Virus record (IMG/VR): IMGVR_UViG_3300044633_001422
Span: 1-39,592 of that record
DNA length: 39,592 nt
Reading direction: 5' to 3' (one strand)
Source: a virus
Every line of letters starts with the position of its first letter. Within the stretch, counting starts at the first letter, position 1. The position numbers and the translations under genes were made by a program. Below are positions 6,912 through 38,917 of this stretch, piece after piece. Below the pieces are notes generated by a model, which worked only from the letters and a program-made list of their open reading frames with translations, was not told the DNA's origin and searched no databases.

Positions 6912-6936
6912 CCACCTGATATCAGGTGGTGCGCAT
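6905..6936. repeat. Perfect 32-bp palindrome
   Basis: ATGCGCACCACCTGAT followed directly by its exact complement. It spans the last four codons and stop of the CCA-adding enzyme gene and the -35 area of the cREC promoter. As RNA it makes a long hairpin without a T tract; as DNA it could be a protein-binding site. Confidence 0.9.
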
Positions 6937-8115
6937 CTTCAGCAGTTGTTCTTTCGTGGTTGCATACCGGTCGTTGAACCATACGTGCTTCATGGCACGC
7001 AGAGTCGAACCGATATCCGGGCCCTTGATACCCGGGACAGCAGCCATGATATCATGGCCATTGACCGGGAACACAGGATACTGACCCCGGCTCTTCAGGG
7101 TGCACCCATAAGCCTCATCGACCCATTCCCTCGGCATGCCACCGACCAGGTAGTCATACTCAGCTGCATATCCGATATTGGAACCACGGTACGTAGTGAT
7201 AGTGTACAGTGCCTGCTTTCGCTCGTCACCAGACCACTTCAGCCTCAGTGACGCAGCAGCAACCATATCAGCTACTTGGCCGTTAACAGAAGCCTCACGG
7301 GCCATCATAGCCCAGATCACAGCCGGAGTTGTATACTCCTTCACAATCCTAGGCAGCACAGCGATAGCATATCCCCAGGCATAAGCATAAGCCTGATCAT
7401 GCTCGAACAGCCCAGAGTCAACAGCGTTCATGGAGGTAAACATCAGACGCATAGCATCAGCAACCTTCGCCTTGTCCTCCACAGCAACCAGCTTGCAGAA
7501 CTCAGACCAGACCCGTTCGGCAGACAGAGTACCCAGGTTCTCAGATACCTCGGCCAGTGCACAGGTAGTGGCCGGGTCATGACGGGCTTCCTGACCAAAC
7601 CGAGCATGAAACCGGTAGTACCTCAGTGCCCTCAGATAGTCTTCCTGGAGACGGACCTTGGCATCACCAACGAACCGGACGATCCCAGCTCGCAGATCAG
7701 CCTCACCACCGAACCAATCATACAGATTGCCATCTGTGTCAGCCATCATTGCATTGATAGTGAAGTCCCGACGGGCCGCATCGGCCTCCCAGTCAGAGGT
7801 GAACTCGACCAAGGCATGCCTCCCGTCAGTCGCCACATCCCTACGCAGAGTCGTCACCTCATAGGCCGACCCGTCGTTGAACAGGACCGTGACAGTGCCA
7901 TGATCAATGCCGGTGGGCAGGATATTACGAACCGATGGCAGAAAAGCCATACGATTGTATACCATCCGGGGATCATACGGTGTGCAGAAGTCATAGTCAG
8001 CCGGCTCGACGCCCATGAGCTGATCACGGACACACCCGCCGGCCATCCTCAGATTGCCGTCCAGGGCATCAGCCATGGCCAGCATGTTCGGGGTCCAATT
8101 AAAACTGCTCATCAT
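6922..8115 (-). CDS. cca: CCA-adding enzyme / poly(A) polymerase family
   Basis: 397-aa class II nucleotidyltransferase. Visible motifs: GGCVRD (26-31), the metal-binding DYD (40-42), RRDFTINAM (115-123) and EDYLRALRYYRF (157-168), the motif order of bacterial tRNA nucleotidyltransferases, with a helical C-terminal half. It should add or repair the 3' CCA of tRNAs. This fits two phage tRNAs here (Ala, Glu) that do not encode CCA. The poly(A) polymerase alternative cannot be excluded from sequence alone. ATGATG lies 6 nt after TAGAAT, so the message should be leaderless. Confidence 0.92.
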   Translation of the reverse strand: MMSSFNWTPNMLAMADALDGNLRMAGGCVRDQLMGVEPADYDFCTPYDPRMVYNRMAFLPSVRNILPTGIDHGTVTVLFNDGSAYEVTTLRRDVATDGRHALVEFTSDWEADAARRDFTINAMMADTDGNLYDWFGGEADLRAGIVRFVGDAKVRLQEDYLRALRYYRFHARFGQEARHDPATTCALAEVSENLGTLSAERVWSEFCKLVAVEDKAKVADAMRLMFTSMNAVDSGLFEHDQAYAYAWGYAIAVLPRIVKEYTTPAVIWAMMAREASVNGQVADMVAAASLRLKWSGDERKQALYTITTYRGSNIGYAAEYDYLVGGMPREWVDEAYGCTLKSRGQYPVFPVNGHDIMAAVPGIKGPDIGSTLRAMKHVWFNDRYATTKEQLLKMRTT

Positions 8116-8121
8116 TAGTCT

Positions 8122-8150
8122 ATTCTACCACGGGTCTAGGCAGTTGTACA
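8122..8150 (-). promoter_or_regulatory. Leaderless early promoter for cca
   Basis: TGTACA (8145-8150), 17 bp, TAGAAT (8122-8127), AGACTA, ATGATG. Confidence 0.78.
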
Positions 8151-8773: not shown

Positions 8774-9015
8774 TACGACTGCACCTTGTACTGATTGTAC
8801 CCATCAGGCAAATTGTTGAATGCTAGCTCGATATCAGCTTGCTTCTCGAACTCATAGAGCTCATGGCGGCGATCTACACGATATGCCGACTTCAATTCGG
8901 ATAGCGAAGCCGTGTCGGCCTCATAGGCTGCGATAGCGAAGCACATCTCGTCCATGGAGGGCCTAGGCCTGGGCGCGTTGCGAATATCGTCCAGGAGTTC
9001 GTACGGGCTGTCCAT
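8773..9015 (-). CDS. Small acidic helical protein (80 aa)
   Basis: Acidic and helical; no motif recognised. Start ATG 9015 follows the upstream stop by 2 nt. Second gene in the operon from promoter 9468-9496. Confidence 0.62.
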   Translation of the reverse strand: MDSPYELLDDIRNAPRPRPSMDEMCFAIAAYEADTASLSELKSAYRVDRRHELYEFEKQADIELAFNNLPDGYNQYKVQS

Positions 9016-9017
9016 GA

Positions 9018-9461
9018 TTACGCTCCGATCCATTCACGGATAGTGGGCTCAAGGGAGTACGGCAGACCCATACAGTAGCAGTAGTACCCAATGTCATACT
9101 GGGCACCGGACTGGAGGGTGAGGACGTCGCCCTGCGACTCGAGCTCCCACCGCATGGCAGTGGCGCGGTCAGGCGCGCCCATCTCCATGTACGAGGCCAG
9201 ACGAGCCTCGAGGGCATCGATGGCCGCCTTCTCGGCTTCGGCTTCCATGGCCAGCTCGGCGTCGATCAGCGTACCGAAGTACACCATGTCGGAGACGAGC
9301 TCCTCGGTGGACATCTCGGTGAAGAGATGGCGGGGGCGGAACCCGTATGCATCCTTGTGCATGTCCGAGTAAATCGCCAGGATGTTCTGGCGGCTCTCGT
9401 CGACCAGCGAGATGCGGAGGGCGTCTTCGGCCGGGACAGTGATCGTGTTGTTCGTATTCAT
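9018..9461 (-). CDS. Conserved phage protein with HKDAYGFRPR motif
   Basis: 147 aa. Residues near 24-45 read RQNILAIYSDMHKDAYGFRPR, followed by a long Glu/Ala coiled region and a GAPDRATAMRW segment. I recall this combination from a widespread, uncharacterised phage protein. Leaderless: ATG begins 6 nt after TAGAAT. First gene of a five-gene operon. Confidence 0.75.
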   Translation of the reverse strand: MNTNNTITVPAEDALRISLVDESRQNILAIYSDMHKDAYGFRPRHLFTEMSTEELVSDMVYFGTLIDAELAMEAEAEKAAIDALEARLASYMEMGAPDRATAMRWELESQGDVLTLQSGAQYDIGYYCYCMGLPYSLEPTIREWIGA

Positions 9462-9467
9462 AAGCCT

Positions 9468-9496
9468 ATTCTACCATCGTTTGAGGCTGGTGTACA
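9468..9496 (-). promoter_or_regulatory. Leaderless early promoter with upstream box
   Basis: TGTACA (9491-9496), 17 bp, TAGAAT (9468-9473), AGGCTT, ATG. Upstream GAAACAATATTACCGC ends 9 nt before TGTACA. It is the right-hand start of the 9.4-18 kb block where this upstream box is nearly invariant. Confidence 0.85.
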
Positions 9497-9528
9497 CAGC
9501 TAAATGCGGTAATATTGTTTCAAAGATG

Positions 9529-9864
9529 CTAGTCGTTGAAGACGATAATTTCCATGCTGATATCCGGATTGACAGGCTTGAACGTCCAGCGATCCACGTC
9601 ACCGTCCCGCGAGTACTTCTCGTCAGACAGGTAGAACAGCTCACGGTTGCCAGTACGCTCGGACTTGATGTAGAAGCCCACATCAGAGGCATCGTTGAAG
9701 ATGCGCCCGAAGAGGGGGCGCTCACGGCCGTTCGTGAGATCGGCCGCCTCGACCGTGAAGACCTTGTACGGCCAGTCGCAAATGGCCGAGACCTGCTCGG
9801 AGTCCTCGCGGTGGAACTGGAGATGGATGGAGGGGTGGGTGACGTTCAGGATGATGTCGTTCAT
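9529..9864 (-). CDS. Hypothetical beta-rich protein (111 aa)
   Basis: I start at ATG 9864, 6 nt after TATATT, rather than at upstream in-frame ATGs that lie in the promoter. Alternating strands, acidic, no signal peptide. Not recognised. Monocistronic: its stop is followed by the promoter of the 9018-9461 operon. Confidence 0.68.
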   Translation of the reverse strand: MNDIILNVTHPSIHLQFHREDSEQVSAICDWPYKVFTVEAADLTNGRERPLFGRIFNDASDVGFYIKSERTGNRELFYLSDEKYSRDGDVDRWTFKPVNPDISMEIIVFND

Positions 9865-9870
9865 ATTGTC

Positions 9871-9899
9871 AATATACACCCTATCGAGGCTCATGTACA
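9871..9899 (-). promoter_or_regulatory. Leaderless early promoter with upstream box
   Basis: TGTACA (9894-9899), 17 bp, TATATT (9871-9876), GACAAT, ATG; upstream GAAACAATATTACCGC. Confidence 0.82.
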
Positions 9900-9922
9900 C
9901 AGCTAACCGCGGTAATATTGTT

Positions 9923-10150
9923 TCAATTTTGCGGCAGATTGCCGTCATGAACCGTCATGCCTTCGATCTGGCCGACGTCCAGGGCTTGCGTCAGGATGGC
10001 CGTAGAATTAGGACCAGGCGACTGGGCCAGATCGATCTTGGACACGCCGGTGGGAGACGGCGTGAAGGTGTACTTGGTGACACAGTCAGACACCAGCTGG
10101 TTGCCGGACTTCATGTAGAGGGTGACAGTCATCATGAGTGGGGTAGACAT
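9923..10150 (-). CDS. Small hypothetical protein (75 aa)
   Basis: Strand-rich small protein; starts at ATG overlapping the preceding TAA (TAATG). A later start at the MMTV site is possible. Last of a three-gene operon from 10646. Confidence 0.6.
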   Translation of the reverse strand: MSTPLMMTVTLYMKSGNQLVSDCVTKYTFTPSPTGVSKIDLAQSPGPNSTAILTQALDVGQIEGMTVHDGNLPQN

Positions 10151-10467
10151 TATGCTGCAGCCTTCTCTTGGGCGACCAGCATCAGCTGGCCGACATACTT
10201 CTCGATACGAGCCTTGCCGCTCGGGGTGATGTGGCGCCAGTACGCGATCTGCTTCGGGGAGAGGTAGTTGTTCCGAAGGAAGAACTTCGCCATGCCCGAG
10301 CCCTTGTGGGCGTGCATCGGCATGAAGCCGCGGTTGTTGTGGTGGCGGGTAGTGTCCGAGGACTGCTCGTCGGCAGTCTGGCGGGCGTGGAGAGCGACCA
10401 GGGCGCGGCCGATGGCCTTGTCGTTGGTGCGCAGGAGCTTGGTGATGTATTCGTGAGTGATGTTCAT
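10150..10467 (-). CDS. Basic hypothetical protein (105 aa)
   Basis: Basic, His-rich; the C-terminal half (YLSPKQIAYWRHITPSGKARIEKYV) looks like a helix-turn-helix or wing segment (by eye). Start is 2 nt after the upstream stop. No family recognised. Confidence 0.62.
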   Translation of the reverse strand: MNITHEYITKLLRTNDKAIGRALVALHARQTADEQSSDTTRHHNNRGFMPMHAHKGSGMAKFFLRNNYLSPKQIAYWRHITPSGKARIEKYVGQLMLVAQEKAAA

Positions 10468-10469
10468 GA

Positions 10470-10646
10470 CTACTTCTTCTTTGTGGCGAAGGCTTCGGCA
10501 GCCGCTTCGATCTCTTCAGCGGTCGGCACCTTGCCGTAGATGAACTTGATCAGCTCTTCTTCGAATTGGAAGTAGCTGCCGCCACCCATGTAGTAATGGT
10601 ACTTTTGGCGGCCGAGGTATTCAACGACTTGTTTGTAAGTTTTCAT
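10470..10646 (-). CDS. Small hypothetical protein (58 aa)
   Basis: Starts at ATG 10646, 6 nt after TATATT. Tyr-rich N-terminal half, then an acidic/Ala helix with a Lys tail. Leaderless first gene of an operon of three. Confidence 0.65.
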   Translation of the reverse strand: MKTYKQVVEYLGRQKYHYYMGGGSYFQFEEELIKFIYGKVPTAEEIEAAAEAFATKKK

Positions 10647-10652
10647 ATTCCC

Positions 10653-10681
10653 AATATACACCCGATCTAGGCCCATGTACA
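10653..10681 (-). promoter_or_regulatory. Leaderless early promoter with upstream box
   Basis: TGTACA (10676-10681), 17 bp, TATATT (10653-10658), GGGAAT, ATG; ACCGC ends 9 nt before TGTACA. The upstream gene's end forms a GTAACAAT/ATTGTTAC inverted repeat with the box. Confidence 0.82.
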
Positions 10682-10725
10682 CACTTCAGTGCGGTAACAA
10701 TGTTTCAAAGATGCGGTACGGATTG

Positions 10726-10911
10726 TTACTTCCAGGCCTTCCGCTGTGACCTCTTGGGCTTGACTTCGGAAGGGTACCGTACGTGGGTAGCTGCAACAGA
10801 CTGCTTCCAGGTCGGCATCAGGTCGACCAGGGGCTTACCCTTGCGGTTCCGTTCGCTGTTGTGGACCTCTTGTGCCCACTTCAGGGCAGAGAGCTGAAAC
10901 TGCGTGAGCAT
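10726..10911 (-). CDS. Small basic protein (61 aa)
   Basis: Basic, Lys/Arg-rich C-terminus (KPKRSQRKAWK). Start ATG 10911 follows the upstream TAG by one base (TAGGATG), which also supplies its ribosome-binding site. Possibly nucleic-acid binding; not recognised. Confidence 0.6.
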   Translation of the reverse strand: MLTQFQLSALKWAQEVHNSERNRKGKPLVDLMPTWKQSVAATHVRYPSEVKPKRSQRKAWK

Positions 10912-10912
10912 C

Positions 10913-11095
10913 CTACTTCTCCGAGGCGACGTTGGTCATGCGAATGGAGCTGAGGAGACGCGAGAGGCCATGGATCTCGCCATGTATATACTGGCGAGCA
11001 TGCTCAGGTACTGAGTCTAGGCTCTCGATAAGGGTGTTGATGCGGCGATCGATAAGCTGGTCGATCCAGATGGGGCAGGGTACATTCGTTGTCAT
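10913..11095 (-). CDS. Small hypothetical protein (60 aa)
   Basis: Helical protein beginning MTTNVPCPIWIDQLIDRR. Leaderless from promoter 11102-11130; coupled to the 61-aa gene. Confidence 0.6.
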   Translation of the reverse strand: MTTNVPCPIWIDQLIDRRINTLIESLDSVPEHARQYIHGEIHGLSRLLSSIRMTNVASEK

Positions 11096-11101
11096 TAGCC
11101 T

Positions 11102-11130
11102 ATACTACCTTAGTTAGAGGGTGGTGTACA
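11102..11130 (-). promoter_or_regulatory. Leaderless early promoter with upstream box
   Basis: TGTACA (11125-11130), 17 bp, TAGTAT (11102-11107), AGGCTA, ATG; ACCGC 9 nt upstream. Confidence 0.8.
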
Positions 11131-11156
11131 CCGAATAGTGCGGTAATATTGTTTCT

Positions 11157-11366
11157 TTATTGCCGCTCAAGTTGTTCGAAAAGCTTGTCCATGGCGGACG
11201 ACATGTCGTCCGCTGCAGCCTGAGCTTCTGCCCTGGTCTCGTACGGGCCGGCATAGGTCCGGTAGTACAGGCCACGCCACCGAGCGAGACAGTGCCACCC
11301 GGTCTCCTTGATCTCGGAGTCGTCACCTGGCGGGAAGAAGCGGCCGTAGGCGATATGGTAGTACAT
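11157..11366 (-). CDS. Small hypothetical protein (69 aa)
   Basis: YRTYAGPYETRAEAQAAADDM suggests a small sheet followed by a helix, as in short phage single-domain proteins with an ExRxEAxxxA helix. Start 11366 lies 2 nt after the previous stop (TGATCATG) with GAGAGG upstream. Third gene of an operon. Confidence 0.65.
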   Translation of the reverse strand: MYYHIAYGRFFPPGDDSEIKETGWHCLARWRGLYYRTYAGPYETRAEAQAAADDMSSAMDKLFEQLERQ

Positions 11367-11368
11367 GA

Positions 11369-11536
11369 TCAGCGCCTCTCTTCCACAATGACAAAGGTCG
11401 ATGCGTCGACGATCTGGTACCAGTCGTGGTCCTCACGAGCATCACGCGCTTCGTCCATGGACGCGAACATACCAATCAGATCACACATACCACCGCTGGG
11501 GTAGTAGTCGTATCCTGCGAATAGAGCGTACTTCAT
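11369..11536 (-). CDS. Micro-protein with FAGYDYYPSGG motif (55 aa)
   Basis: ATG 11536 to TGA 11369-11371. Motif ALFAGYDYYPSGG, then FASMDEARDA and DWYQIVD: a small domain I recall in many unrelated phages (FAGxxYYPxGG ... DWxQIVD). Function unknown. Both junctions in this operon use the same TGATCATG arrangement. Confidence 0.72.
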   Translation of the reverse strand: MKYALFAGYDYYPSGGMCDLIGMFASMDEARDAREDHDWYQIVDASTFVIVEERR

Positions 11537-11538
11537 GA

Positions 11539-11787
11539 TCAGCCCCAGTCCTTGAAGTTGCCGGACTCCTCGTTGTCGCGGAAGCCCGCCTCGTACTCGG
11601 CGATCTCTTCCGGAGTCGTGGCCAAGACGGCCGCCCCGTTGTAGGTACCGTTAGGATACCAGTGGGGCTCACGCCCACGACGGTAGTACGAGTCGGCAGA
11701 GCCGCGATCGTAGAGCGACCCGTGCTTGCGGTCGAAAGGCGAGCGGTTGCGCTCGCCGAAGGTGTGGAAGGGTTTGTTCGTATTCAT
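11539..11787 (-). CDS. Hypothetical protein (82 aa)
   Basis: Arg/Gly/Tyr-rich N-terminal half (GSADSYYRRGREPHWYPNG), then an acidic helix. Looks like a domain with PHW/Y aromatic turns; not recognised. Leaderless first gene of an operon of three. Confidence 0.65.
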   Translation of the reverse strand: MNTNKPFHTFGERNRSPFDRKHGSLYDRGSADSYYRRGREPHWYPNGTYNGAAVLATTPEEIAEYEAGFRDNEESGNFKDWG

Positions 11788-11793
11788 AAGTCC

Positions 11794-11822
11794 ATTCTAC
11801 CTTAATTCGAGGGTAGTGTACA
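11794..11822 (-). promoter_or_regulatory. Leaderless early promoter with upstream box
   Basis: TGTACA (11817-11822), 17 bp, TAGAAT (11794-11799), GGACTT, ATG; box variant ATCGC. Confidence 0.82.
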
Positions 11823-11851
11823 CTACAAAGTGCGATTCGATTGTTTCAATT

Positions 11852-12073
11852 TTACTTGAAACTCTTTCTGAAAATATCAACGAACTCTCCACGTGCATCC
11901 GCGGGGAGGGCGGCGACCACGCCGAGAAAGGCGCGGGCGAGGCGCGCGTCCTGGCGGTGGATGCGAGTGGCCGCGGCGGCGACCTTCTTTTCGACCTCCG
12001 CGCGGAGGTGGGCTTCGCGGCCGGTCGGGACGCCGGCGGTCTTGAGGTCGGAGAGCTTAGGATATTTGTTCAT
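11852..12073 (-). CDS. Small basic helical protein (73 aa)
   Basis: ATG 12073, 6 nt after TATACT. Ala/Arg-rich helix (EKKVAAAATRIHRQDARLAR). Basic, so maybe DNA binding. Monocistronic and leaderless. Confidence 0.62.
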   Translation of the reverse strand: MNKYPKLSDLKTAGVPTGREAHLRAEVEKKVAAAATRIHRQDARLARAFLGVVAALPADARGEFVDIFRKSFK

Positions 12074-12079
12074 AATCCC

Positions 12080-12108
12080 AGTATACACCTTGTCGAGGGT
12101 CATGTACA
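12080..12108 (-). promoter_or_regulatory. Leaderless early promoter
   Basis: TGTACA (12103-12108), 17 bp, TATACT (12080-12085), GGGATT, ATG; upstream box diverged (TTCAC in place of ACCGC). Confidence 0.78.
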
Positions 12109-12156
12109 ACGAAAAGAGTGAAATATTATTTCTTAGATAAGCGTTGTATTGTAATA

Positions 12157-12426
12157 TTATTTCCATGGCACCTCATGCATTTCGCGCCATTCGGCGAATT
12201 CGCTGGGGCCATCAATAAAAAAGGTTAGTGCAAATTTGCGCACCGCTTTGATATTAGGGAATTCCACTTCCACATAGGGATTGCCACCGCCCGGGCCAAT
12301 ATGAGTACAATGTACCATTTGAACCCCATCGCTAAACCGGGCCGACACCCACTCGTAAAATTGGTTAAAATCGCCGATGACGTCGGTACCAATGCGGATC
12401 ATTTCGTTTCCTTCATTCTTCATCAT
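12157..12426 (-). CDS. Hypothetical protein (89 aa)
   Basis: ATGATG at 12426, 6 nt after TATAAT; a later ATG (MIRIGTDV) behind GAAGGAAAC is an alternative start. Alpha/beta protein with GPGGGNPYVEVEF; not recognised. More AT-rich than neighbours. Confidence 0.64.
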   Translation of the reverse strand: MMKNEGNEMIRIGTDVIGDFNQFYEWVSARFSDGVQMVHCTHIGPGGGNPYVEVEFPNIKAVRKFALTFFIDGPSEFAEWREMHEVPWK

Positions 12427-12432
12427 AATTTT

Positions 12433-12461
12433 ATTATACCCTATATTTTGGCTAATGTACA
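12433..12461 (-). promoter_or_regulatory. Leaderless early promoter with upstream box
   Basis: TGTACA (12456-12461), 17 bp, TATAAT (12433-12438), AAAATT, ATGATG; upstream GAAACATAAGAACCGC. Confidence 0.82.
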
Positions 12462-12470
12462 ACGAAAAGA

Positions 12471-12496
12471 GCGGTTCTTATGTTTCAAAGAACCGC
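12471..12496 (-). terminator. Hairpin built from promoter upstream box
   Basis: GCGGTTCTT/AAGAACCGC, 9 bp with an 8-nt loop, after the stop of the 12521-12925 gene. One arm is the conserved ACCGC box of the next promoter, so terminator and promoter share bases. Confidence 0.6.
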
Positions 12497-12520
12497 TGCA
12501 CTTAGTAACTTTATTACCGC

Positions 12521-12925
12521 TTACCGGCCGTAGCCAAACTGCGGCGCCTGACGCACAGGGAACGGTTGTGTGTAGATCACAGTCGACTGCGGCTGCTGAG
12601 GCGTCACGATCACGATCTGCTGCGGCTGTTGCACCGGTGCAGGACGGTTGTTCTGGATCAGCATGCCGATGATGCCGGCCGCGGCGCCGATGCCAGAGAC
12701 TGCGATGTTCGAGTCATAAGGACCCGATCCGGCATAACAGCCGGTGCAGTTGTAGTTGTACGTCCGGTTCGGCTGGTTCCAACCATACCCGTAGCCGCCA
12801 CCATTGTAGCTGTTGTTGATCGTGTTGTTGATCACCTGTCCGCGGACCTGCTGAGCGTTGGACTCGGTCGACATGATGGTGACAGCGCAGACGGCCGCAA
12901 TGGCCAAGAGGTAACGATTTTTCAT
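12521..12925 (-). CDS. Secreted Gly/Asn/Gln-rich protein
   Basis: 134 aa. Signal peptide (MKNRYLLAIAAVCAVTIM...SNA-QQ), then Asn/Gly/Tyr-rich sequence with two Cys (NCTGCYAG), a small Gly/Ala hydrophobic stretch (GIGAAAGIIGMLI, a possible membrane insertion helix) and a Gln/Pro/Val-rich tail. Probably periplasmic or outer-membrane attached. ATG 12925 is preceded by AAGGA. Last gene in an operon with two tiny membrane proteins, which together look like an envelope-directed unit. Confidence 0.7.
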   Translation of the reverse strand: MKNRYLLAIAAVCAVTIMSTESNAQQVRGQVINNTINNSYNGGGYGYGWNQPNRTYNYNCTGCYAGSGPYDSNIAVSGIGAAAGIIGMLIQNNRPAPVQQPQQIVIVTPQQPQSTVIYTQPFPVRQAPQFGYGR

Positions 12926-12926
12926 A

Positions 12927-13013
12927 TTATTGTCCTTGTGAGCACGTGAGTGCGATGAACAGGAAGGCACAGGGCGCCAAGACTGTCAGAAACTGTTTGA
13001 TGATCGGATGCAT
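12927..13013 (-). CDS. Tiny membrane protein (28 aa)
   Basis: ATG 13013 overlaps the upstream TGA (TGATG) and the reading frame ends at 12927. Almost entirely one hydrophobic helix (IIKQFLTVLAPCAFLFIALTC). It may be a small membrane peptide or a remnant; the tight coupling on both sides favours a real gene. Confidence 0.5.
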   Translation of the reverse strand: MHPIIKQFLTVLAPCAFLFIALTCSQGQ

Positions 13014-13153
13014 CACGGTTGCCCCATCGAATACTTGAGCATGATGAACAACCACGTGATGTAGCCGACCAAGGTAGCGGTACCGACACAGATCGAGAGC
13101 ACCGTAAAGGGCCGGAAGAGCCAATATCTATTGGTTAAGGTGTTCACATTCAT
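13013..13153 (-). CDS. Small membrane protein (46 aa)
   Basis: ATG 13153, 6 nt after TAGAAT, to TGA at 13013-13015. One membrane helix (about 16-40) with basic residues before it. Leaderless first gene of a three-gene envelope operon (46 aa, 28 aa, 134 aa). Confidence 0.62.
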   Translation of the reverse strand: MNVNTLTNRYWLFRPFTVLSICVGTATLVGYITWLFIMLKYSMGQP

Positions 13154-13159
13154 AAGTTC

Positions 13160-13188
13160 ATTCTACCACTGTTTGAGGGTGTTGTACA
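13160..13188 (-). promoter_or_regulatory. Leaderless early promoter with upstream box
   Basis: TGTACA (13183-13188), 17 bp, TAGAAT (13160-13165), GAACTT, ATG; GAACCGC 9 nt upstream. Confidence 0.83.
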
Positions 13189-13261
13189 CTGAATAGAGCG
13201 GTTCGATTGTTTCAAAGATGCGGCTCATATTGTAATAATATTTAGCAGTCCGGGCAATGCA

Positions 13262-13297
13262 AAAGAGGTCCATGGGACTAACACCATGGACCTCTTT
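13262..13297 (-). terminator. Strong bidirectional-looking terminator
   Basis: Perfect 14-bp stem AAAGAGGTCCATGG and its complement with an 8-nt loop, ending in TTTT on the minus strand. Terminates the 13340-13807 gene. A second small hairpin (GGGGAG/CTCCCC) lies at 13305-13320. Confidence 0.85.
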
Positions 13298-13339
13298 CAC
13301 TTGTGGGGAGGAGGCTCCCCGTCTATAGGGCGTTAGGAC

Positions 13340-13807
13340 TTACAGGACGTTCTTCAGATCGTCCAGTGACAGCGAGTCCGGAGCAGCGAGACCCAGTGGA
13401 TCATCCGACTGCCTAACCTCCGGCTCCGAGTCCTCATCGAGGACAGGCTTCTCCACCGCGTCCAGATGGATACCGGCCTTCTTGGCGGCCGCCTTGAGGC
13501 GATCGAGGCGATCCGCATCAGGCTTGGCCGTCTTCACGACCGCCTTCGTCGCGGTGCGCTTCGTGGCCGTCTTGGCCTTGGTGGGGGCCTTCTCGACCAC
13601 GCCGGTGGCGAGACCACGCTTCGCGAAGTCGCGGTACCACGCGCGGGCGTACGACATGGTCATCGAGAGGTCCTTCGCGATGACCGCGCAGGTCTCATGC
13701 ATCGGCTTGTCGCCGTTTGCGTTCATGATATCCTTGACCGCCTGAGTGGTCGAGCCGCGCTTGGTGTCCGTCATGGTGTTGTCCTTGGTTTGGTTGGTGT
13801 TGGTCAT
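13340..13807 (-). CDS. SYARAWYRD-type putative DNA-binding protein (copy 1)
   Basis: 155 aa. Residues about 20-70 carry DIMNANGDKPMHETCAV, DLSMTMSYARAWYRDFAKRG, which look like a helix-turn-helix, followed by a Lys/Ala/Thr-rich linker of histone-like character and an acidic tail. A paralogue is at 16260-16619. I infer a nucleoid-associated or regulatory DNA-binding protein. ATG 13807 lies 7 nt after TAGAAT; a second ATG in frame 11 codons on (MTDTK) is an alternative. Confidence 0.7.
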   Translation of the reverse strand: MTNTNQTKDNTMTDTKRGSTTQAVKDIMNANGDKPMHETCAVIAKDLSMTMSYARAWYRDFAKRGLATGVVEKAPTKAKTATKRTATKAVVKTAKPDADRLDRLKAAAKKAGIHLDAVEKPVLDEDSEPEVRQSDDPLGLAAPDSLSLDDLKNVL

Positions 13808-13814
13808 TATGATC

Positions 13815-13843
13815 ATTCTACACCGCAACGACGGCAATGTACA
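13815..13843 (-). promoter_or_regulatory. Leaderless early promoter with upstream box
   Basis: TGTACA (13838-13843), 17 bp, TAGAAT (13815-13820), GATCATA, ATG; upstream GAAATAAACGAACCGC. Confidence 0.82.
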
Positions 13844-13870
13844 ACAAAAAGAGCGGTTCGTTTATTTCAA

Positions 13871-14506
13871 TTATGCCGTCTTAGCGGTAACATTGTTACC
13901 GAGAAGCTTGAGGCAGAGGGGGCAGGTGACAGGGGTCATTCCCTTGTACGACACCCGAGTCTTCGACTGGTTGGACCTGAAGGAGAAGTGGCCGTTCTGG
14001 GACCGCGTGGAGCGGCACAAAAGCGGAGCGCCATGTCCACCATCACCACTGGCCGGGGCGTGCACCGGACGCGGCTTACGCGGGAGTTTGGCCTTCGCAA
14101 TGGCCTTCTTCTCGGACTTGTACATCTCGGCACCAACCGGCCGGTACCGGGCACCAGAGATGTGGCCGCGGCCATAGTTGAAGGCCTCGAGCTTCCGGTT
14201 GGACTGGAGCCACTTACGGACTACGTCCAGGAAGGTCACGCGGGGGGATCCGGTCGAGATCCGGACCTGATTGAGCCCGTAGGACGTCCCATCCGCGTTG
14301 TCGTCCCCGAGCTTGGGGCGCGGCTTGCCCTTCAGATCGAAGCTCAGGAAGTGGCGGGCCTGACGCTCGAGGTCCGACGCGGTCAGGTAGTACGTGTTGC
14401 CGCGGAAGTCGCGGCCAGCCGCACGGTCCGCCATGTTGCGGGCCCAGAGGAAGTCCCACGCGTCCGAGATGAGTTTGGGGAGATTGGTCTTCTGTGTCTT
14501 TTTCAT
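13871..14506 (-). CDS. Zinc-finger-like basic protein (211 aa)
   Basis: Largest gene of the array. N-terminal helical part (KLISDAWDFLWARN), a central basic region, and a C-terminal part with LLCRSTRSQNGHFSF and TPVTCPLCLKLL, which supplies Cys and His ligands typical of phage C-H-CxxC zinc ribbons. No catalytic motif recognised. Leaderless from 14513-14541, divergent from the plus-strand gene at 14676. Confidence 0.7.
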   Translation of the reverse strand: MKKTQKTNLPKLISDAWDFLWARNMADRAAGRDFRGNTYYLTASDLERQARHFLSFDLKGKPRPKLGDDNADGTSYGLNQVRISTGSPRVTFLDVVRKWLQSNRKLEAFNYGRGHISGARYRPVGAEMYKSEKKAIAKAKLPRKPRPVHAPASGDGGHGAPLLCRSTRSQNGHFSFRSNQSKTRVSYKGMTPVTCPLCLKLLGNNVTAKTA

Positions 14507-14512
14507 ATTCTA

Positions 14513-14541
14513 AATATACACCCTAACGAGGCTGTTGTACA
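14513..14541 (-). promoter_or_regulatory. Leaderless early promoter, left arm of a divergent pair
   Basis: TGTACA (14536-14541), 17 bp, TATATT (14513-14518), ATG 14506; upstream GAAACAATCGAACCGC. Back to back with 14641-14669. Confidence 0.82.
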
Positions 14542-14640
14542 ACGAATTGTGCGGTTCGATTGTTTCAAAGATCACTCGGGCCACGAAATTTTATTTCGCT
14601 GGTCTCCACATCTTTGAAACATTATTACCGCTCTTTTCGT

Positions 14641-14669
14641 TGTACATCACCCTCGAACTAAGGTAGAAT
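14641..14669 (+). promoter_or_regulatory. Leaderless early promoter on plus strand
   Basis: TGTACA (14641-14646), 17 bp, TAGAAT (14664-14669), GAGCTT, ATG 14676; upstream box GAAACATTATTACCGC. Mirror image of the minus-strand modules, proving that the motif is orientation-bound to its gene. Confidence 0.86.
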
Positions 14670-14675
14670 GAGCTT

Positions 14676-14939
14676 ATGAATACGAACAAGCGCGCCGCGG
14701 ACGTTATCCGCGCTCTCATGGTCGTCACCAAGACCGGTGGCCGTCTCTATTCAGACAAGACCAAGTTCGGTCGATCGATCAAGGTCACCGGCTGGCCGGA
14801 TTACGCATACGAGACCGCAGTGCGAGTGCTCGAGCGATACGGGTACGAAGCCACGATCTCGTGCAAAGTCCGGAAGCGGGCCCGCCACATTGGATATTGT
14901 GCTGTCACCAGGCTTCATGTGAACCATAAGGTAGCCTAG
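14676..14939 (+). CDS. Small basic protein on the plus strand (87 aa)
   Basis: One of very few plus-strand genes. N-terminus MNTNKRAADVIRALMVV; basic throughout, with alternating strands and helices. Leaderless. Followed by a 10-bp hairpin at 14952-14984. Not recognised. Confidence 0.72.
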   Translation: MNTNKRAADVIRALMVVTKTGGRLYSDKTKFGRSIKVTGWPDYAYETAVRVLERYGYEATISCKVRKRARHIGYCAVTRLHVNHKVA

Positions 14940-14951
14940 AACAACGCACCG

Positions 14952-14984
14952 GCTAAATCCCTGAAAATACGTCGGGGATTTAGC
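14952..14984 (+). terminator. Hairpin after plus-strand gene
   Basis: Arms GCTAAATCCC (14952-14961) and complement (14975-14984) with a 13-nt loop, 13 nt beyond the stop. No T tract. Confidence 0.6.
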
Positions 14985-15094
14985 AATGATATCAACACGT
15001 TGGGGACGCGAGAAATCGCGTTTTTTCGCGTTTCTAGCTTTGGTGTAGGCAACCTAGGGCCCCTCTGTGTTAACTGCGGCGAAAAACGCGAAGA
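14985..15094. other. Noncoding spacer between convergent genes
   Basis: No gene. It contains the self-complementary words CGCGTTTTTTCGCG and GCGAAAAACGCG, which can also pair with each other, so the spacer is likely structured in either transcript. Confidence 0.5.
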
Positions 15095-15122
15095 AACGGC
15101 TTAGCATTTACGCTAAGCCGTT
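15095..15122. terminator. Terminator between convergent genes
   Basis: Perfect 11-bp stem AACGGCTTAGC and complement, 6-nt loop, 11 nt after the stop of the 15134 gene. A TTTT run lies close to the stem on the plus-strand side. Confidence 0.8.
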
Positions 15123-15133
15123 GTTTTCGTTGG

Positions 15134-15526
15134 TTATTCCCAGTTCGTAATGCCGGTAACATTGGAATAGTCGAGACCGAACTCGTATGCGAGCGTTACG
15201 AGCCGCTCACGGAGGCCTTCGGCATCATCGGAGTAGTCATGGGCGTACTGAAGCTGATCGAACAGCTTGGCACGACCTTCGACCGTGATACCGGATGCCT
15301 CTAGAGCGTGATGTACGCTCTCAGCGAAAGCCGGCATGGTCTCGAGCTCGGGAGTGTAAGCCTCGTCCTTGATCAGGCAGCCGATCGCACACATGTCACC
15401 ATTCGGTGCACGGTACATACAGTCAGGCACTGCGCCGCCGGGGGCATGCTGGTCGACAGTGACCGAGCGATGGCCCTGCTTGATGAAGTGAGCGACTACG
15501 CGGTCGAAGATTTCTTGATCAGTCAT
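15134..15526 (-). CDS. CAVGCLIKDE family protein (copy 3)
   Basis: 130 aa, MTDQEIFDRVVAHF, then CMYRAPNGDMCAIGCLIKDEAY. Third copy of the family also found at 5749-6147 and 6147-6512, here with GC-rich codon use like its neighbours, so the duplication is old. Second gene of a two-gene operon from 15809. Confidence 0.76.
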   Translation of the reverse strand: MTDQEIFDRVVAHFIKQGHRSVTVDQHAPGGAVPDCMYRAPNGDMCAIGCLIKDEAYTPELETMPAFAESVHHALEASGITVEGRAKLFDQLQYAHDYSDDAEGLRERLVTLAYEFGLDYSNVTGITNWE

Positions 15527-15530
15527 GAGA

Positions 15531-15809
15531 TTAGTCCTTGAAGGGGATGATGATTTCGTCGTCGAACTCGGGGTCATCGAAGAGATCGATGAAGTACTCA
15601 CCATCCATCTGGAGGTTCGTCGGATCCGCACGAAAGCGGTCCATCTGAGTCTCGTAGTAGAACTCGATGAGATCTCCATGACTCAGCTGATTGAGGGACA
15701 TGTCGATCACGAGCTCTGCCGCGTCATTGAACGCGACCTTGTCGGTAGTGACTTTCGGGAGCAGGACCTTGAGGCGCTGCGCGGTTTCGATCGGATCATT
15801 CGTATTCAT
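15531..15809 (-). CDS. Acidic hypothetical protein (92 aa)
   Basis: MNTNDPIETAQRLKVLLPK, then a helical acidic protein ending FDDEIIIPFKD. Leaderless (ATG 6 nt after TAGAAT). Coupled to the copy-3 gene downstream. Not recognised. Confidence 0.68.
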   Translation of the reverse strand: MNTNDPIETAQRLKVLLPKVTTDKVAFNDAAELVIDMSLNQLSHGDLIEFYYETQMDRFRADPTNLQMDGEYFIDLFDDPEFDDEIIIPFKD

Positions 15810-15815
15810 AAGTTC

Positions 15816-15844
15816 ATTCTACCTTAGTTCGAGGGTGATGTACA
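15816..15844 (-). promoter_or_regulatory. Leaderless early promoter with upstream box
   Basis: TGTACA (15839-15844), 17 bp, TAGAAT (15816-15821), GAACTT, ATG; upstream GAAATAAAAGAACCGC. Confidence 0.86.
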
Positions 15845-15873
15845 CTAGAAAGTGCGGTTCTTTTATTTCAATT

Positions 15874-16155
15874 TCACCCGAGCTGGGGATCGATCGTGCA
15901 CTCGGGCTCTTCGACGTTGTATCGAGCCCAGTTGTTCCAGAGCCACTTCTGCGCGGCCTCGAGCGTATCCATGATGGCGTCCTCGTTCGTCGAGATCGTC
16001 CAGTACTGGCCGGTGACTTCCATGAACTGGATGAACGAGCCATCCGCGTCGAAGATGTAGCCAGACGGCTGACCGTCCTCGAAGAAGTCGACCTCTTCCG
16101 AGAGATCGAGGACGAAACGCCGCGAGGCAACCCACTTGTCATATGCTGTATTCAT
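15874..16155 (-). CDS. Hypothetical protein ending IDPQLG (93 aa)
   Basis: Acidic alpha/beta protein. The last residues (TIDPQLG) are identical to the end of the 17022-17243 product (QIDPQLG), and the nucleotides after both genes match, so the two loci share a duplicated 3' end plus promoter. Leaderless. Confidence 0.68.
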   Translation of the reverse strand: MNTAYDKWVASRRFVLDLSEEVDFFEDGQPSGYIFDADGSFIQFMEVTGQYWTISTNEDAIMDTLEAAQKWLWNNWARYNVEEPECTIDPQLG

Positions 16156-16161
16156 AAGCCT

Positions 16162-16190
16162 ATTCTACACTCGTTAGCGGGTAATGTACA
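16162..16190 (-). promoter_or_regulatory. Leaderless early promoter with upstream box
   Basis: TGTACA (16185-16190), 17 bp, TAGAAT (16162-16167), AGGCTT, ATG; upstream GAAACATAAGAACCGC. Confidence 0.85.
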
Positions 16191-16199
16191 ACGAAATAT

Positions 16200-16225
16200 G
16201 CGGTTCTTATGTTTCAAAGAACCGC
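16200..16225 (-). terminator. Hairpin built from promoter upstream box
   Basis: GCGGTTCTT/AAGAACCGC as at 12471-12496, following the 16260-16619 gene. Confidence 0.6.
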
Positions 16226-16259
16226 ACTCGTAGGTAATAATGTTATAGTGGCTGAGGCG

Positions 16260-16619
16260 TTACGCGGCCGCGGCGCCGGCTTCCGCCGACGCTTCCGGCG
16301 CGTTCACGACCGCCTTCATGGCCTTCCGCTTCGCGCGGAGCGCCTTGAGCTCAGCCTTGGTCGGCTTCTTCGCGATCTCGCCCGACGCCTTGCCGCGGCG
16401 GACCATGTCGCGGTACCAGGCACGCGCGTAGCTCGTGGTGATCGAGAGCTCGCGGGCGATGATTTCCGACACGACGTGCATCGGCTTGTCGGAGTAGTTC
16501 TCCATGATGTCGCACACGACCGCGGTCGGCTGACCGAAGCTCATGGTCGCGGACAGGATCTTGTTGTTCGTCTTCGGGGTCGTCGGGGCAGTCGTGGTCG
16601 TGTTGAGGTCGGTCGTCAT
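16260..16619 (-). CDS. SYARAWYRD-type putative DNA-binding protein (copy 2)
   Basis: 119 aa: Thr-rich leader segment, then DIMENYSDKPMHVVSEII..SITTSYARAWYRDMVRRG and a Lys/Ala tail. Paralogue of the 13340-13807 product. I start at ATG 16619 behind AAGGAA; upstream ATG in the same frame is inside the -10 box and cannot be transcribed. Uses the class-B leader (ATTGATTGAG). Confidence 0.72.
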   Translation of the reverse strand: MTTDLNTTTTAPTTPKTNNKILSATMSFGQPTAVVCDIMENYSDKPMHVVSEIIARELSITTSYARAWYRDMVRRGKASGEIAKKPTKAELKALRAKRKAMKAVVNAPEASAEAGAAAA

Positions 16620-16680
16620 TTTCAAAGTTCCTTGAAGTGGCGCACTCGGCGCCGTGGGGTTGGTCTCAATCAATATAGTC

Positions 16681-16709
16681 ATTCTACTACGCTACTAAGC
16701 TGTTGTACA
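16681..16709 (-). promoter_or_regulatory. Class-B early promoter with leader
   Basis: TGTACA (16704-16709), 17 bp, TAGAAT (16681-16686), then a 60-nt leader beginning GACTATATTGATTGAG; box GAACCGC upstream. Confidence 0.82.
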
Positions 16710-16743
16710 CTCTTTTCAGCGGTTCTTTTATTTCTTTGTTGGC

Positions 16744-16759
16744 AAAGAACCGGTTCTTT
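16744..16759. repeat. Perfect 16-bp palindrome AAAGAACCGGTTCTTT
   Basis: Two promoter upstream boxes fused head to head, just upstream of promoter 16681-16709 and after the stop of the 16766 gene. Could be a terminator stem or a dimer binding site. Confidence 0.85.
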
Positions 16760-16765
16760 TATTAC

Positions 16766-16957
16766 CTAGGCCTTAACGACCTTCACGTACTTCGAGAAGT
16801 CGCCGAAACCGGCGTCCGCAACCTCGAGCTCGAGGCCATGGCTGCGCAGCTGCGCGTCCAGGAGTTGGAGAACGCCCATGCGGACGTCCATCTCGACGTA
16901 GCCCGCGGGGGTCTGGTAGTCGAAGGTCTCAAGATCACTGATCAGGATTGTTTTCAT
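16766..16957 (-). CDS. Small hypothetical protein (63 aa)
   Basis: MKTILISDLETFDYQ, alpha/beta, ends with a Lys-Val-rich tail. Leaderless, monocistronic. Not recognised. Confidence 0.64.
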   Translation of the reverse strand: MKTILISDLETFDYQTPAGYVEMDVRMGVLQLLDAQLRSHGLELEVADAGFGDFSKYVKVVKA

Positions 16958-16963
16958 ATTCCA

Positions 16964-16992
16964 ATTCTACTGCAAGTCGCGGTTGGTGTACA
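16964..16992 (-). promoter_or_regulatory. Leaderless early promoter with upstream box
   Basis: TGTACA (16987-16992), 17 bp, TAGAAT (16964-16969), TGGAAT, ATG. Confidence 0.85.
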
Positions 16993-17021
16993 CAGTTAAG
17001 TGCGGTTCTTTTATTTCAATT

Positions 17022-17243
17022 TCACCCGAGCTGGGGATCGATTTGAGCGGCCAGTTCGTCCGCATCGATCGCCTCGTAGAGCGCGCACGAAAGGCCGAAC
17101 ATGTAGCTATAGCGGCCATATTCTTCCGCGCTCAGCTTCTCGGAACTCTCGAGGACGTCCTGGGCAAGAAGCCCGTCCACTTCGATCTGGTTGAGAAGAT
17201 CCAGCGTCCGCTGGCCGATAAGGTAGGGGTTTTTGTTAATCAT
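17022..17243 (-). CDS. Small acidic protein ending IDPQLG (73 aa)
   Basis: Helical, acidic. C-terminal DPQLG plus following bases repeat those of the 15874 gene. Leaderless. Not recognised. Confidence 0.66.
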   Translation of the reverse strand: MINKNPYLIGQRTLDLLNQIEVDGLLAQDVLESSEKLSAEEYGRYSYMFGLSCALYEAIDADELAAQIDPQLG

Positions 17244-17249
17244 TAGCCT

Positions 17250-17278
17250 ATTCTACTGCAGGTCGAGGGTGTTGTACA
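17250..17278 (-). promoter_or_regulatory. Leaderless early promoter with upstream box
   Basis: TGTACA (17273-17278), 17 bp, TAGAAT (17250-17255), AGGCTA, ATG. Confidence 0.85.
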
Positions 17279-17309
17279 ACGAAATATGCGGTTCGTTTAT
17301 TTCTTTGTG

Positions 17310-17444
17310 GCGGCCGTTCCGGTTCGTTTGTTACCGGCCGGCTAGCCGCGTATTGCCTCGCTGGGGCGGGCTTCCGGGCGCGAGGTAGCTAGCTGCCTAG
17401 GCTCCCCGGCTCCTACCAGGGCCGCCCAGCGCGGCCGCTGAGGG
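17310..17444. other. GC-rich structured noncoding patch
   Basis: No open frame. Right after the stop at 17445 the minus strand can fold GCCC-AGCG hairpins around GCGGCCGC, and CCTCGC/GCGAGG closes a larger loop. It holds the 19-nt element GGTAGCTAGCTGCCTAGGC (17384-17402), which recurs at 18168-18186. Candidate small RNA or 3' UTR structure. Confidence 0.5.
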
Positions 17445-17645
17445 CTACTTCATGGGTACTACCCAGATCGTCATCGGGCCATCCGCCCAATCCAGCTGGG
17501 TCTGGGCCCACGTCTCGGCCTCTTCGACCTTCTCGTGCACGAAGTAGTCGAACTGACCACCATCGCAGTCCGTTCCGGCGATCCGGATCTGGACGAACCC
17601 GTTGCGGGCGTACGCGACGATGTCGGCTTTGTTGAGAATGTCCAT
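17445..17645 (-). CDS. Small hypothetical protein (66 aa)
   Basis: ATG 17645 behind AGGATC that overlaps the upstream stop. Contains FDYFVHEKVEEAETWAQTQL, a strand-helix pattern of small phage proteins. Second gene of the 17880 operon. Confidence 0.64.
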   Translation of the reverse strand: MDILNKADIVAYARNGFVQIRIAGTDCDGGQFDYFVHEKVEEAETWAQTQLDWADGPMTIWVVPMK

Positions 17646-17655
17646 GATGTTGATC

Positions 17656-17880
17656 CTACTTGCTGTTGAAGATGAAGTCGCCGAGGGCCTGGAACTGGAA
17701 GTAGTTCTCGACCCGAATTTCAAAGGCCGCCACTTCGCCGAAGTCGCCGCTTTCGACGAACGAGTACGCGATCTTGTTCTCGATCAAGACGCCGAAGATG
17801 TCGTTCCCGTCCGCATTCAGAAGGACGCCGCCATCCGCAAGGAAGTCGACCGTGAGCTTGATAGTGATTGGTGTGTTCAT
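17656..17880 (-). CDS. Hypothetical protein (74 aa)
   Basis: MNTPITIKLTVDFLADGGVLLN: beta-rich, acidic, not recognised. Leaderless; part of a divergent promoter pair with the damaged plus-strand unit at 18013. Confidence 0.66.
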   Translation of the reverse strand: MNTPITIKLTVDFLADGGVLLNADGNDIFGVLIENKIAYSFVESGDFGEVAAFEIRVENYFQFQALGDFIFNSK

Positions 17881-17886
17881 ATGCCC

Positions 17887-17915
17887 ATTCTACTGCGACA
17901 CCGCGGTCTTGTACA
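17887..17915 (-). promoter_or_regulatory. Leaderless early promoter, divergent pair
   Basis: TGTACA (17910-17915), 17 bp, TAGAAT (17887-17892), GGGCAT, ATG; box reads TTACGCG. Confidence 0.82.
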
Positions 17916-18012
17916 CTGCGAATCGCGTAATATTGTTTCAAAGATACCTAGGGAAGCGAAATTTTATTACAGTGGCGCGCCGCAATGAGTCACTTTATTA
18001 CGCGATTCGCTA

Positions 18013-18041
18013 TGTACACCAGCCTCGACTGGCTATAGAAT
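18013..18041 (+). promoter_or_regulatory. Plus-strand early promoter without a start codon
   Basis: TGTACA (18013-18018), 17 bp, TAGAAT (18036-18041), GGGGTT, then ATA (18048-18050) exactly where all sister promoters have ATG. Confidence 0.78.
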
Positions 18042-18280
18042 GGGGTTATAACGCACGGGCAATCCGCGGCGGGGGCTGGAGTCAACCAGCAGGGAAGCCA
18101 CCAGACCTGGGGTTTTTCTGGACCCCCAAACCCGCGTAACGCGGCCACAGATCGGACCCCGGGGCAAGGTAGCTAGCTCCCTAGGCGCGAACCGTGGCCG
18201 ATGTGGGCATGGATACGAGGCCGCGCCACCGGTGGGGCCACCGCGGTTCTTTTGTTACAAGAAACCGCAGTTCATTGAAA
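18042..18280 (+). other. Noncoding region behind the start-less promoter
   Basis: A frame from the ATA runs about 42 codons to a TAG and could be a decayed gene. The RNA would be very GC-rich with stems such as CCGCG/CGCGG and TGGGGT/ACCCCC, and carries the second copy of the GGTAGCTAGCT-CCTAGGC element (18168-18186), ending in a GCGGTTCTT/AAGAAACCGC hairpin (18243-18268). It may be a small RNA gene or a pseudogene. Confidence 0.45.
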
Positions 18281-26228: not shown

Positions 26229-26417
26229 TTAGTCACGGCTCAGCCAATACCTGCAAGGCACAGGCTTACCCTTAAATTTATCAACTTCGAATTGTGGATA
26301 ACCTTTTGCCACAAGCCAAGTATTAAGATCAGCGTCAGCAGGTGGCGCTGGGATCGGAAACCCATAACGCCACCCGCTCGGAGGATCAATGACCAATGTT
26401 TCGTTTGATGTATTCAT
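26229..26417 (-). CDS. Small Pro-rich protein (62 aa), leaderless
   Basis: ATG 26417, 6 nt after TATAAT. PPSGWRYGFPIPAPPADADL then a Lys-rich tail. Not recognised. Confidence 0.6.
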   Translation of the reverse strand: MNTSNETLVIDPPSGWRYGFPIPAPPADADLNTWLVAKGYPQFEVDKFKGKPVPCRYWLSRD

Positions 26418-26423
26418 TTTAGT

Positions 26424-26452
26424 ATTATACACCATCCGAATTGAATTGTACA
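26424..26452 (-). promoter_or_regulatory. Leaderless early promoter
   Basis: TGTACA (26447-26452), 17 bp, TATAAT (26424-26429), ACTAAA, ATG. It overlaps the last codons of the metallophosphoesterase gene. Confidence 0.76.
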
Positions 26453-27214: not shown

Positions 27215-27316
27215 TTATCTACCAAATAGATGCCCGAACAAATTATCGAACTGGCCCTCGTGCTTGGTAGCAGCCAGGGCAATCATTTTCGACAGCATTT
27301 TTCCGTTGTTCATCAT
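27215..27316 (-). CDS. Micro-protein (33 aa), leaderless
   Basis: ATGATG 27316 lies 6 nt after TATTAT; stop TAA 27215-27217. Amphipathic helix (GKMLSKMIALAATKHEGQFDNLFGHLFGR). The perfect promoter-to-ATG spacing supports a real gene despite its size. Confidence 0.55.
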   Translation of the reverse strand: MMNNGKMLSKMIALAATKHEGQFDNLFGHLFGR

Positions 27317-27322
27317 ATGTAC

Positions 27323-27351
27323 ATAATACACTATATCAGGTCAGTTGTACA
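27323..27351 (-). promoter_or_regulatory. Leaderless early promoter
   Basis: TGTACA (27346-27351), 17 bp, TATTAT (27323-27328), GTACAT, ATGATG. Drives the 33-aa gene and tRNA-Glu. Confidence 0.74.
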
Positions 27352-38274: not shown

Positions 38275-38882
38275 TTTGCAAACTTCTCCGTAACAATACA
38301 TTGACCGGTCATTTGTGCATCACTGTGCTCTGGTTTGTGTGCATAGTACATACCATATGGGTTTTTATGTGAATTGATCATATATTTCATAAATGTATCA
38401 CCTATGCAAATGAAATGGAATGTACAAAGGTAATCTTCATTTGCGCCATTAACCCGAATGAATTCACCAGCTACAAGATAATCCATATATGGAATACGCT
38501 TTTCCATTTTCGCGACTAAATTTCTAGGGTAATTGAAGTAAGTTCCGTTTAGCCGCTTTACTTCGAAAGTAACTAGATTAGTTGGATCTTGATAATTTAT
38601 ACAGTCGTACGCATAAGTTTCTGGGTTAGTTTTGTCATGTTCAAGAGGACCACGGACGAAATTAGGAAACAGCCCCAGAGCAAACTCTAGTACGCCCTTT
38701 TGTGCATCTCGATATAGTTCTTCCTCAGTTCTGATTTTATCCTTTTCACCACGCATATGTAGACGCACGTCTTCATCATGATACTTGTCCATCATCTCAT
38801 GAATGTATACCTTAACCCAAGGTTCATTCTTGAGTAGGATCGGCTTATTTAGAATTTGGTTAGCAAAATGTTCAATATTCAT
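38271..38882 (-). CDS. PD-(D/E)XK nuclease-like protein
   Basis: 203 aa from leaderless ATG 38882. YDCINYQDPTNLVTFEVKRLNG shows D93 followed by E107-V-K109, the spacing of the PD-(D/E)XK core, with helices before it. A nuclease that could cut unmodified host DNA would fit with a phage carrying hmC; not proven. Overlaps the next gene by 4 nt (ATGA). Confidence 0.6.
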   Translation of the reverse strand: MNIEHFANQILNKPILLKNEPWVKVYIHEMMDKYHDEDVRLHMRGEKDKIRTEEELYRDAQKGVLEFALGLFPNFVRGPLEHDKTNPETYAYDCINYQDPTNLVTFEVKRLNGTYFNYPRNLVAKMEKRIPYMDYLVAGEFIRVNGANEDYLCTFHFICIGDTFMKYMINSHKNPYGMYYAHKPEHSDAQMTGQCIVTEKFAK

Positions 38883-38888
38883 CTGACT

Positions 38889-38917
38889 ATTATACCATAA
38901 CAAAGTTTAAATGTACA
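38889..38917 (-). promoter_or_regulatory. Leaderless early promoter of modification operon
   Basis: TGTACA (38912-38917), 17 bp, TATAAT (38889-38894), AGTCAG, ATG. It appears to drive the nuclease-like, Nmad1, gp42 and downstream genes. Confidence 0.78.

Follow-up and report, generated by a model that had tools for sequence, protein, structure and literature searches.

The promoters and start codons of a viral DNA stretch from IMG/VR (record IMGVR_UViG_3300044633_001422) were analysed; the whole stretch of 39,592 bases, in which 9 transfer RNAs (tRNAs) were counted, is here called the window. The window very likely carries, in a phage of the T4 superfamily, an array of sigma70-type promoters predicted to make leaderless messenger RNAs (mRNAs) for first genes, with 15 such units in an 8.5-kb block of small genes (9.4-18.1 kb) and 19 in the window. 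Each unit of the array forms a compact cassette, in which an upstream box (-60 to -45) precedes the -35 element TGTACA; after a spacer of 17 bp come a -10 element resembling TAGAAT or TATATT, a discriminator of 6 nt and the ATG, and the beginning of the gene is rich in A and C and unstructured. In the proposed mechanism the host RNA polymerase would begin the transcript on the AUG, host ribosomes would load directly on this 5' AUG, and some second genes would be translated by close coupling. The box would serve as binding site for a protein that regulates the array; either of two helix-turn-helix (HTH)-like paralogues may be this protein.

The pattern TGTACA-(16-18)-TANNAT matched the window 26 times, where 0.16 matches would be expected. 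When the -10 was loosened to TANNNT, 32 matches were obtained at 17 bp and not more than 12 at any other spacing, and with TATAAT or TAGAAT as -10 the exact TGTACA was found at 17 bp only. Two spurious overlapping reverse matches (12456 and 16185, plus strand) were removed, leaving 30 credible promoters. In 19 of these, exactly 6 nt separate the -10 from the ATG, and 15 of the 19 lie within 9.4-18.1 kb, while a first-order Markov control for the 19 exact units gave a mean of 0.003 and a maximum of 1 in 300. Among the 18 promoters of the array interval, 15 are leaderless at +1 with an offset of 6, offsets 1-5 are empty, and the exceptions are those at 13843 and 16709 (minus strand) and 18013 (plus strand). 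Outside the interval, leaderless units were found at 8150, 26452, 27351 and 38917, and also at 6524 and 6888 with an imperfect -35, all on the minus strand. The ATG of an open reading frame (ORF) of at least 40 aa follows a TAKAAT site at offset 6 in 15 cases in the window; the same comparison gave 0 for phiM12, 0 for DLP6 and 3 of 255 for Cr30, so that no excess like that of the window was seen in these three phages.

A preliminary description of this DNA had reported at least 15 copies of TGTACA-17-TANNAT-6-ATG in 9.4-18 kb. The count of 15 exact units was recovered, but only 11 have TANNAT and four have TATATT or TATACT (9899, 10681, 12108 and 14541). The leaderless array is probably real and extends past that interval, although its promoters were wrongly termed identical, for the hexamers, the spacing and parts of the spacer are common to the units and yet the sequences differ. 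To call the whole region leaderless was too strong, as three array promoters are not, several second genes are apparently coupled, and units led by a Shine-Dalgarno (SD) sequence exist.

All 30 promoters combine a TATAAT-like -10 with a -35 element 17 bp apart, as in sigma70-type promoters. The -35 is not the sigma70 consensus: TTGACA was found at 17 bp from none of the 83 TAKAAT sites of the window, and TGTACA in 23 cases. The consensus of T4 early promoters differs from TGTACA as well. It is rather unlikely that the TGTACA palindrome is instead bound by a phage activator that takes the place of the -35, in the manner of MotA at T4 middle promoters; in that case the array genes would be middle genes, and leaderless starts would still be compatible with it. 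TGTACA is strict, TTGACA is unused at 17 bp, and the class is absent from the named relatives, all of which would suit an activator, but the exact 17-bp spacing fits direct recognition by sigma region 4. The MotA box TGCTT, moreover, lies about 12 bp from the -10 (PMC2988021), whereas the conserved element here is TGTACA at 17 bp. Variation at this place also argues against an activator site, since TTTACA occurs in the viral contig L146 and CTTTAC in DLP6. Early expression of the array genes would be plausible in a T4-type phage.

Counted from the -10, the seventh base is A in 29 of the 30 promoters; 11 promoters have no ATG at this point, and 10 of them have the A nevertheless. In these 10 the base is under no coding constraint, so that the A is most probably the start point of transcription, and from the sequence transcription most likely starts on the A of the ATG. 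If this predicted start is right, the SD-like matches fall within the untranscribed promoter and the transcript holds no SD. From codon 6 onward the leaderless ORFs have a G+C fraction of 0.75-0.80 at third codon positions and 0.37-0.38 at second positions, and in 17 of the 19 ORFs no SD-preceded in-frame start was found within 30 codons (an adjacent second ATG aside). These results indicate ORFs starting at the 5' AUG across the set and are not proof gene by gene. The minimum free energy of the first 40 nt is -2.6 kcal/mol compared with -9.6 kcal/mol inside genes (p=2e-10), and the first codons are A/C-rich (AAT ACG AAC); leaderless translation is reportedly stronger with CA repeats after the start codon (PMC9031893). 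The unstructured start is supporting only, because low-structure starts are common in any gene. That the RNA begins on the A of the ATG, in line with the earlier proposal of a start at or next to the start codon, is well supported by the +7 A where no ATG stands, by the coding bias by codon 6 and by SD-led homologues elsewhere.

Those homologues were found for the protein encoded at 9018-9461. In at least 12 other viral contigs, and in most of the homologues, its gene is preceded by TATAAT, then a leader of about 20-30 nt, then an SD and the ATG (for example L014, L020, L025, L031 and L039), the leaders being counted by eye from printed sequences. The homologue in L022 has the same TGTACA promoter, but with a leader ending AAGGATAGATC-ATG (AAGGA). 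On the simplest reading of these sequences, the lineage of the window would have lost the leader or the other phages would have gained one.

Several observations weigh against leaderless translation. In L146 the gene starts elsewhere than at the AUG at +1, which lies in a leader with an SD, so that a leaderless gene is not proved by a 5' ATG alone. The unit at 12461 (minus strand) has a possible SD-led start, consisting of AAGGA and, 24 nt into the gene, an ATG in frame, and AAGG or GGTG occurs in several spacers and could serve as SD if transcription came from upstream. The units abut closely, and therefore leadered read-through messages probably exist. The array is also known from one contig, as L009-L011 reach only 28.5-37.4 kb and a second assembly of the array was searched for and none was found. 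The L146 and 12461 cases and the closeness of unit ends to the next promoter would agree with real promoters whose 5' ATG is often the preferred initially transcribed sequence, the main protein coming from read-through messages or internal SD-led starts. This is quite improbable in view of the 17 ORFs having no such internal start and of the coding bias by codon 6. It is highly improbable that the geometry arose by chance from tight packing of the genes, with short spacers pushing the ATG against the -10, for although the intergenic regions of the array are short, compactness predicts neither offset 6 in 15 of 18 promoters with offsets 1-5 empty nor the +7 A of promoters that have no start codon at this point, and leadered and leaderless units adjoin.

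The box at -60 to -45 in the array units was absent from the preliminary description. It reads TTGAAACAATATTACCGC or GAACCGC variants and ends 9 bp before the -35. A high-scoring copy stands at this fixed place in 15 of the 18 array promoters; few position weight matrix hits lie elsewhere, and most promoters outside the array are without it. Some upstream copies are near-palindromic (GGTAACAATGTTACC), a symmetry that a regulator site would be expected to have. Leaderlessness does not depend on the box, because the unit at 8150 and three others have none. A role as terminator was rejected, since by eye only some copies form hairpins. A scan of other phage contigs recovered the box in L146 and, as a loose copy, in L212, and in no others.

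The two HTH-like paralogues both lie inside the array (13340-13807 and 16260-16619) and are 47% identical in alignment. No relatives were found in viral contigs, GenBank phages or PHROGs. A Foldseek search with a low-confidence model of the 16260 paralogue gave nothing significant, the top matches being three-helix DNA-binding domains. The promoters of both paralogues (13843 and 16709) are two of the three array promoters not leaderless at +1. Binding of the box by these proteins is speculation. On an unlikely extension of it, a box-binding paralogue would co-regulate about 15 leaderless cassettes; the regulators, not being leaderless at +1, would be translated by a different route, and a shift of ribosome state in infection would favour one class. 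The promoter at 16709 shares a common leader start (ATTGATTG) after the predicted transcription start with those at 21297 and 24962 and with that at 3217 of L064 (all minus strand), the last two being at syntenic positions.

The T4-superfamily affiliation was indicated by replication genes for a gp44/gp45-type clamp loader (30982-31926) and clamp (31941-32615; PHROG 168 and 223). DNA near-identical to the window was not found among GenBank phages. For one gene, the most similar proteins among named phages (46-58%) belong to T4-superfamily phages infecting Stenotrophomonas (DLP6), Caulobacter (Cr30), Sinorhizobium (phiM12 group), Rhizobium and Ochrobactrum; the clamp loader has its closest matches (about 50%) in phages of Stenotrophomonas and Pelagibacter and in cyanophages. 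Several of the nearest named relatives have Alphaproteobacteria as hosts. An actinophage origin, the first guess from the leaderless pattern, was dropped in view of the T4-type replication genes and of signal-peptide proteins, which suggest a Gram-negative host. A host was searched for in 84,980 genomes, where the outer-membrane-like protein and the phage tRNA-Arg stretch had no match. This protein (2436-2918) is encoded by a phage gene, carries a signal peptide and looks like a barrel of the outer membrane (MNKFLKISVVALAAIAAAGSAFAQ...), and no relative of it was found in those genomes.

Beyond the window, TGTACA-N16-GTAKAAT-N6-ATG was found in at least 118 stretches of environmental viral contigs, and whole-record searches revealed the promoter repeated within large contigs, some with the gp23 major capsid gene (records G001, G007, G008, G015 and G018). 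TGTACA-17-TATAAT occurs commonly among phage contigs from the environment, several of which are T4-type. In seven named T4-superfamily phages the class was absent beyond scattered single matches. In five other records an ATG 5-6 nt after the -10 with a long ORF was found at about 12 of 58 promoters (about 21%), a share slightly high because each record was found via one leaderless match, and many others carry SD leaders. These IMG/VR promoters thus resemble those of the window in the -35, the spacing and the predicted +1, but are mostly leadered and have the box only in the two contigs named above. Since most transcripts of the class elsewhere are leadered, leaderless use appears amplified in the window phage.

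Leaderless mRNAs on which the 5' AUG falls on the first transcribed base are known from hosts of related phages, with 375 in Caulobacter, where their translation is no weaker than that of leadered mRNAs (PMC4117421), and 171 in Sinorhizobium (PMC3616915). They differ from the array in belonging to cellular genes, being a minority of transcripts and having no common cassette. The claim that a phage translation factor is implied does not hold given these numbers and the alphaproteobacterial hosts of several nearest relatives; if the host is similar, none would be required, because Caulobacter translates both kinds equally well. Phage transcripts are often leaderless according to a remark in one paper (PMC5312081). 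Cluster O mycobacteriophages (Corndog) have predicted leaderless promoters, one of them TGTCAA-17-TAGAAT, but three per genome, in an actinobacterial host in which leaderless genes are common, with no cassette array and no T4-type genome (PMC4351075). The ESAS/SAS modules of Cluster K (Adephagia) are likewise repeated SigA-like cassettes with inverted repeats before small genes, but number seven copies, and their genes are leadered because a conserved start-associated sequence stands 3-9 bp before the start codon (PMC11373665). T4 early promoters resemble the array in being strong, in belonging to the sigma70 class and in having many recognition elements, and they too are part of a T4-type genome; leaderless messages are not mentioned in the review consulted (PMC2988021). 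Leaderless phage messages are therefore already known, and the combination of this density with a T4-type genome appears new within the literature searched, which was mostly open-access. If the 5' ends fall on these ATGs, the array would offer a naturally occurring, dense group of leaderless phage genes under common control, probably in a Gram-negative host, and the leadered homologues in related phages would offer a ready test of leader loss and retained translation. A further result is the definition of a TGTACA promoter class that environmental phages, several of T4 type, possess and the named isolates tested do not have. Coordinates are given in Table 1.

Table 1. Promoters, units and associated genes of the window
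Feature	Position	Strand	Gene or remark
tRNA nucleotidyltransferase gene	6922-8115	-	leaderless promoter 8113..8150
Leaderless unit without upstream box	8113..8150	-	tRNA nucleotidyltransferase gene
Leaderless unit, TGTACA-17-TAGAAT-6-ATG	9459..9496	-	9018-9461 (147 aa)
Upstream box example TTGAAACAATATTACCGC	9506..9523	-	9 bp before -35
Leaderless unit, TGTACA-17-TATATT-6-ATG	9862..9899	-	9529-9864
Leaderless unit	10644..10681	-	10470-10646; next ATG 10467 directly after its stop
Leaderless unit	11093..11130	-	10913-11095
Leaderless unit	11785..11822	-	11539-11787; next ATG 11536 directly after its stop
Leaderless unit, TGTACA-17-TATACT-6-ATG	12071..12108	-	11852-12073
5' ATG at +1	12424..12461	-	12157-12426; possible in-frame SD-led start 24 nt downstream
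Leaderless unit	13151..13188	-	13013-13153
HTH-like paralogue, candidate regulator	13340..13807	-	47% identical to 16260 protein
HTH-like paralogue promoter	13805..13843	-	13340-13807; ATG 1 nt past predicted start (AATG); possible SD-led start further in
Leaderless unit, TGTACA-17-TATATT-6-ATG	14504..14541	-	13871-14506 (211 aa)
Leaderless unit, divergent	14641..14678	+	14676-14939
Leaderless unit	15807..15844	-	15531-15809
Leaderless unit	16153..16190	-	15874-16155
HTH-like paralogue, candidate regulator	16260..16619	-	predicted three-helix core, pLDDT about 80-88
Leadered promoter, HTH-like paralogue	16681..16709	-	16260-about 16619; leader about 50-60 nt, AAGGA upstream of ATG
Leaderless unit	16955..16992	-	16766-16957
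Leaderless unit	17241..17278	-	17022-17243
Leaderless unit	17878..17915	-	17656-17880
Divergent promoter without ATG at +1	18013..18041	+	
Leaderless promoter outside array	26415..26452	-	
Leaderless promoter outside array	27314..27351	-	33-aa ORF, doubtful gene
Leaderless promoter outside array	38880..38917	-	203-aa ORF

In several units only a few nt separate the stop codon of one gene from the start of the second, which suggests coupling. Terminator-like inverted repeats were seen by eye at 14940-15130, between convergent genes, and at 13260-13300, before the promoter at 13188 (minus strand). The region 17887-18150 holds a divergent promoter pair and, at about 18050-18150, a G+C-rich hairpin-like sequence, possibly a small RNA, for which no Rfam match was listed. 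The G+C content of 9001-18000 is about 52-58% against about 40-43% near the window ends, and the GC skew changes sign; the history of this block of small genes may be a different one. A weak Rfam tRNA match (32.6 bits) lies at 21784-21857, where ARAGORN made no call, and an HNH-type homing endonuclease (PHROG 655) is encoded at the window edge (38921-39592).
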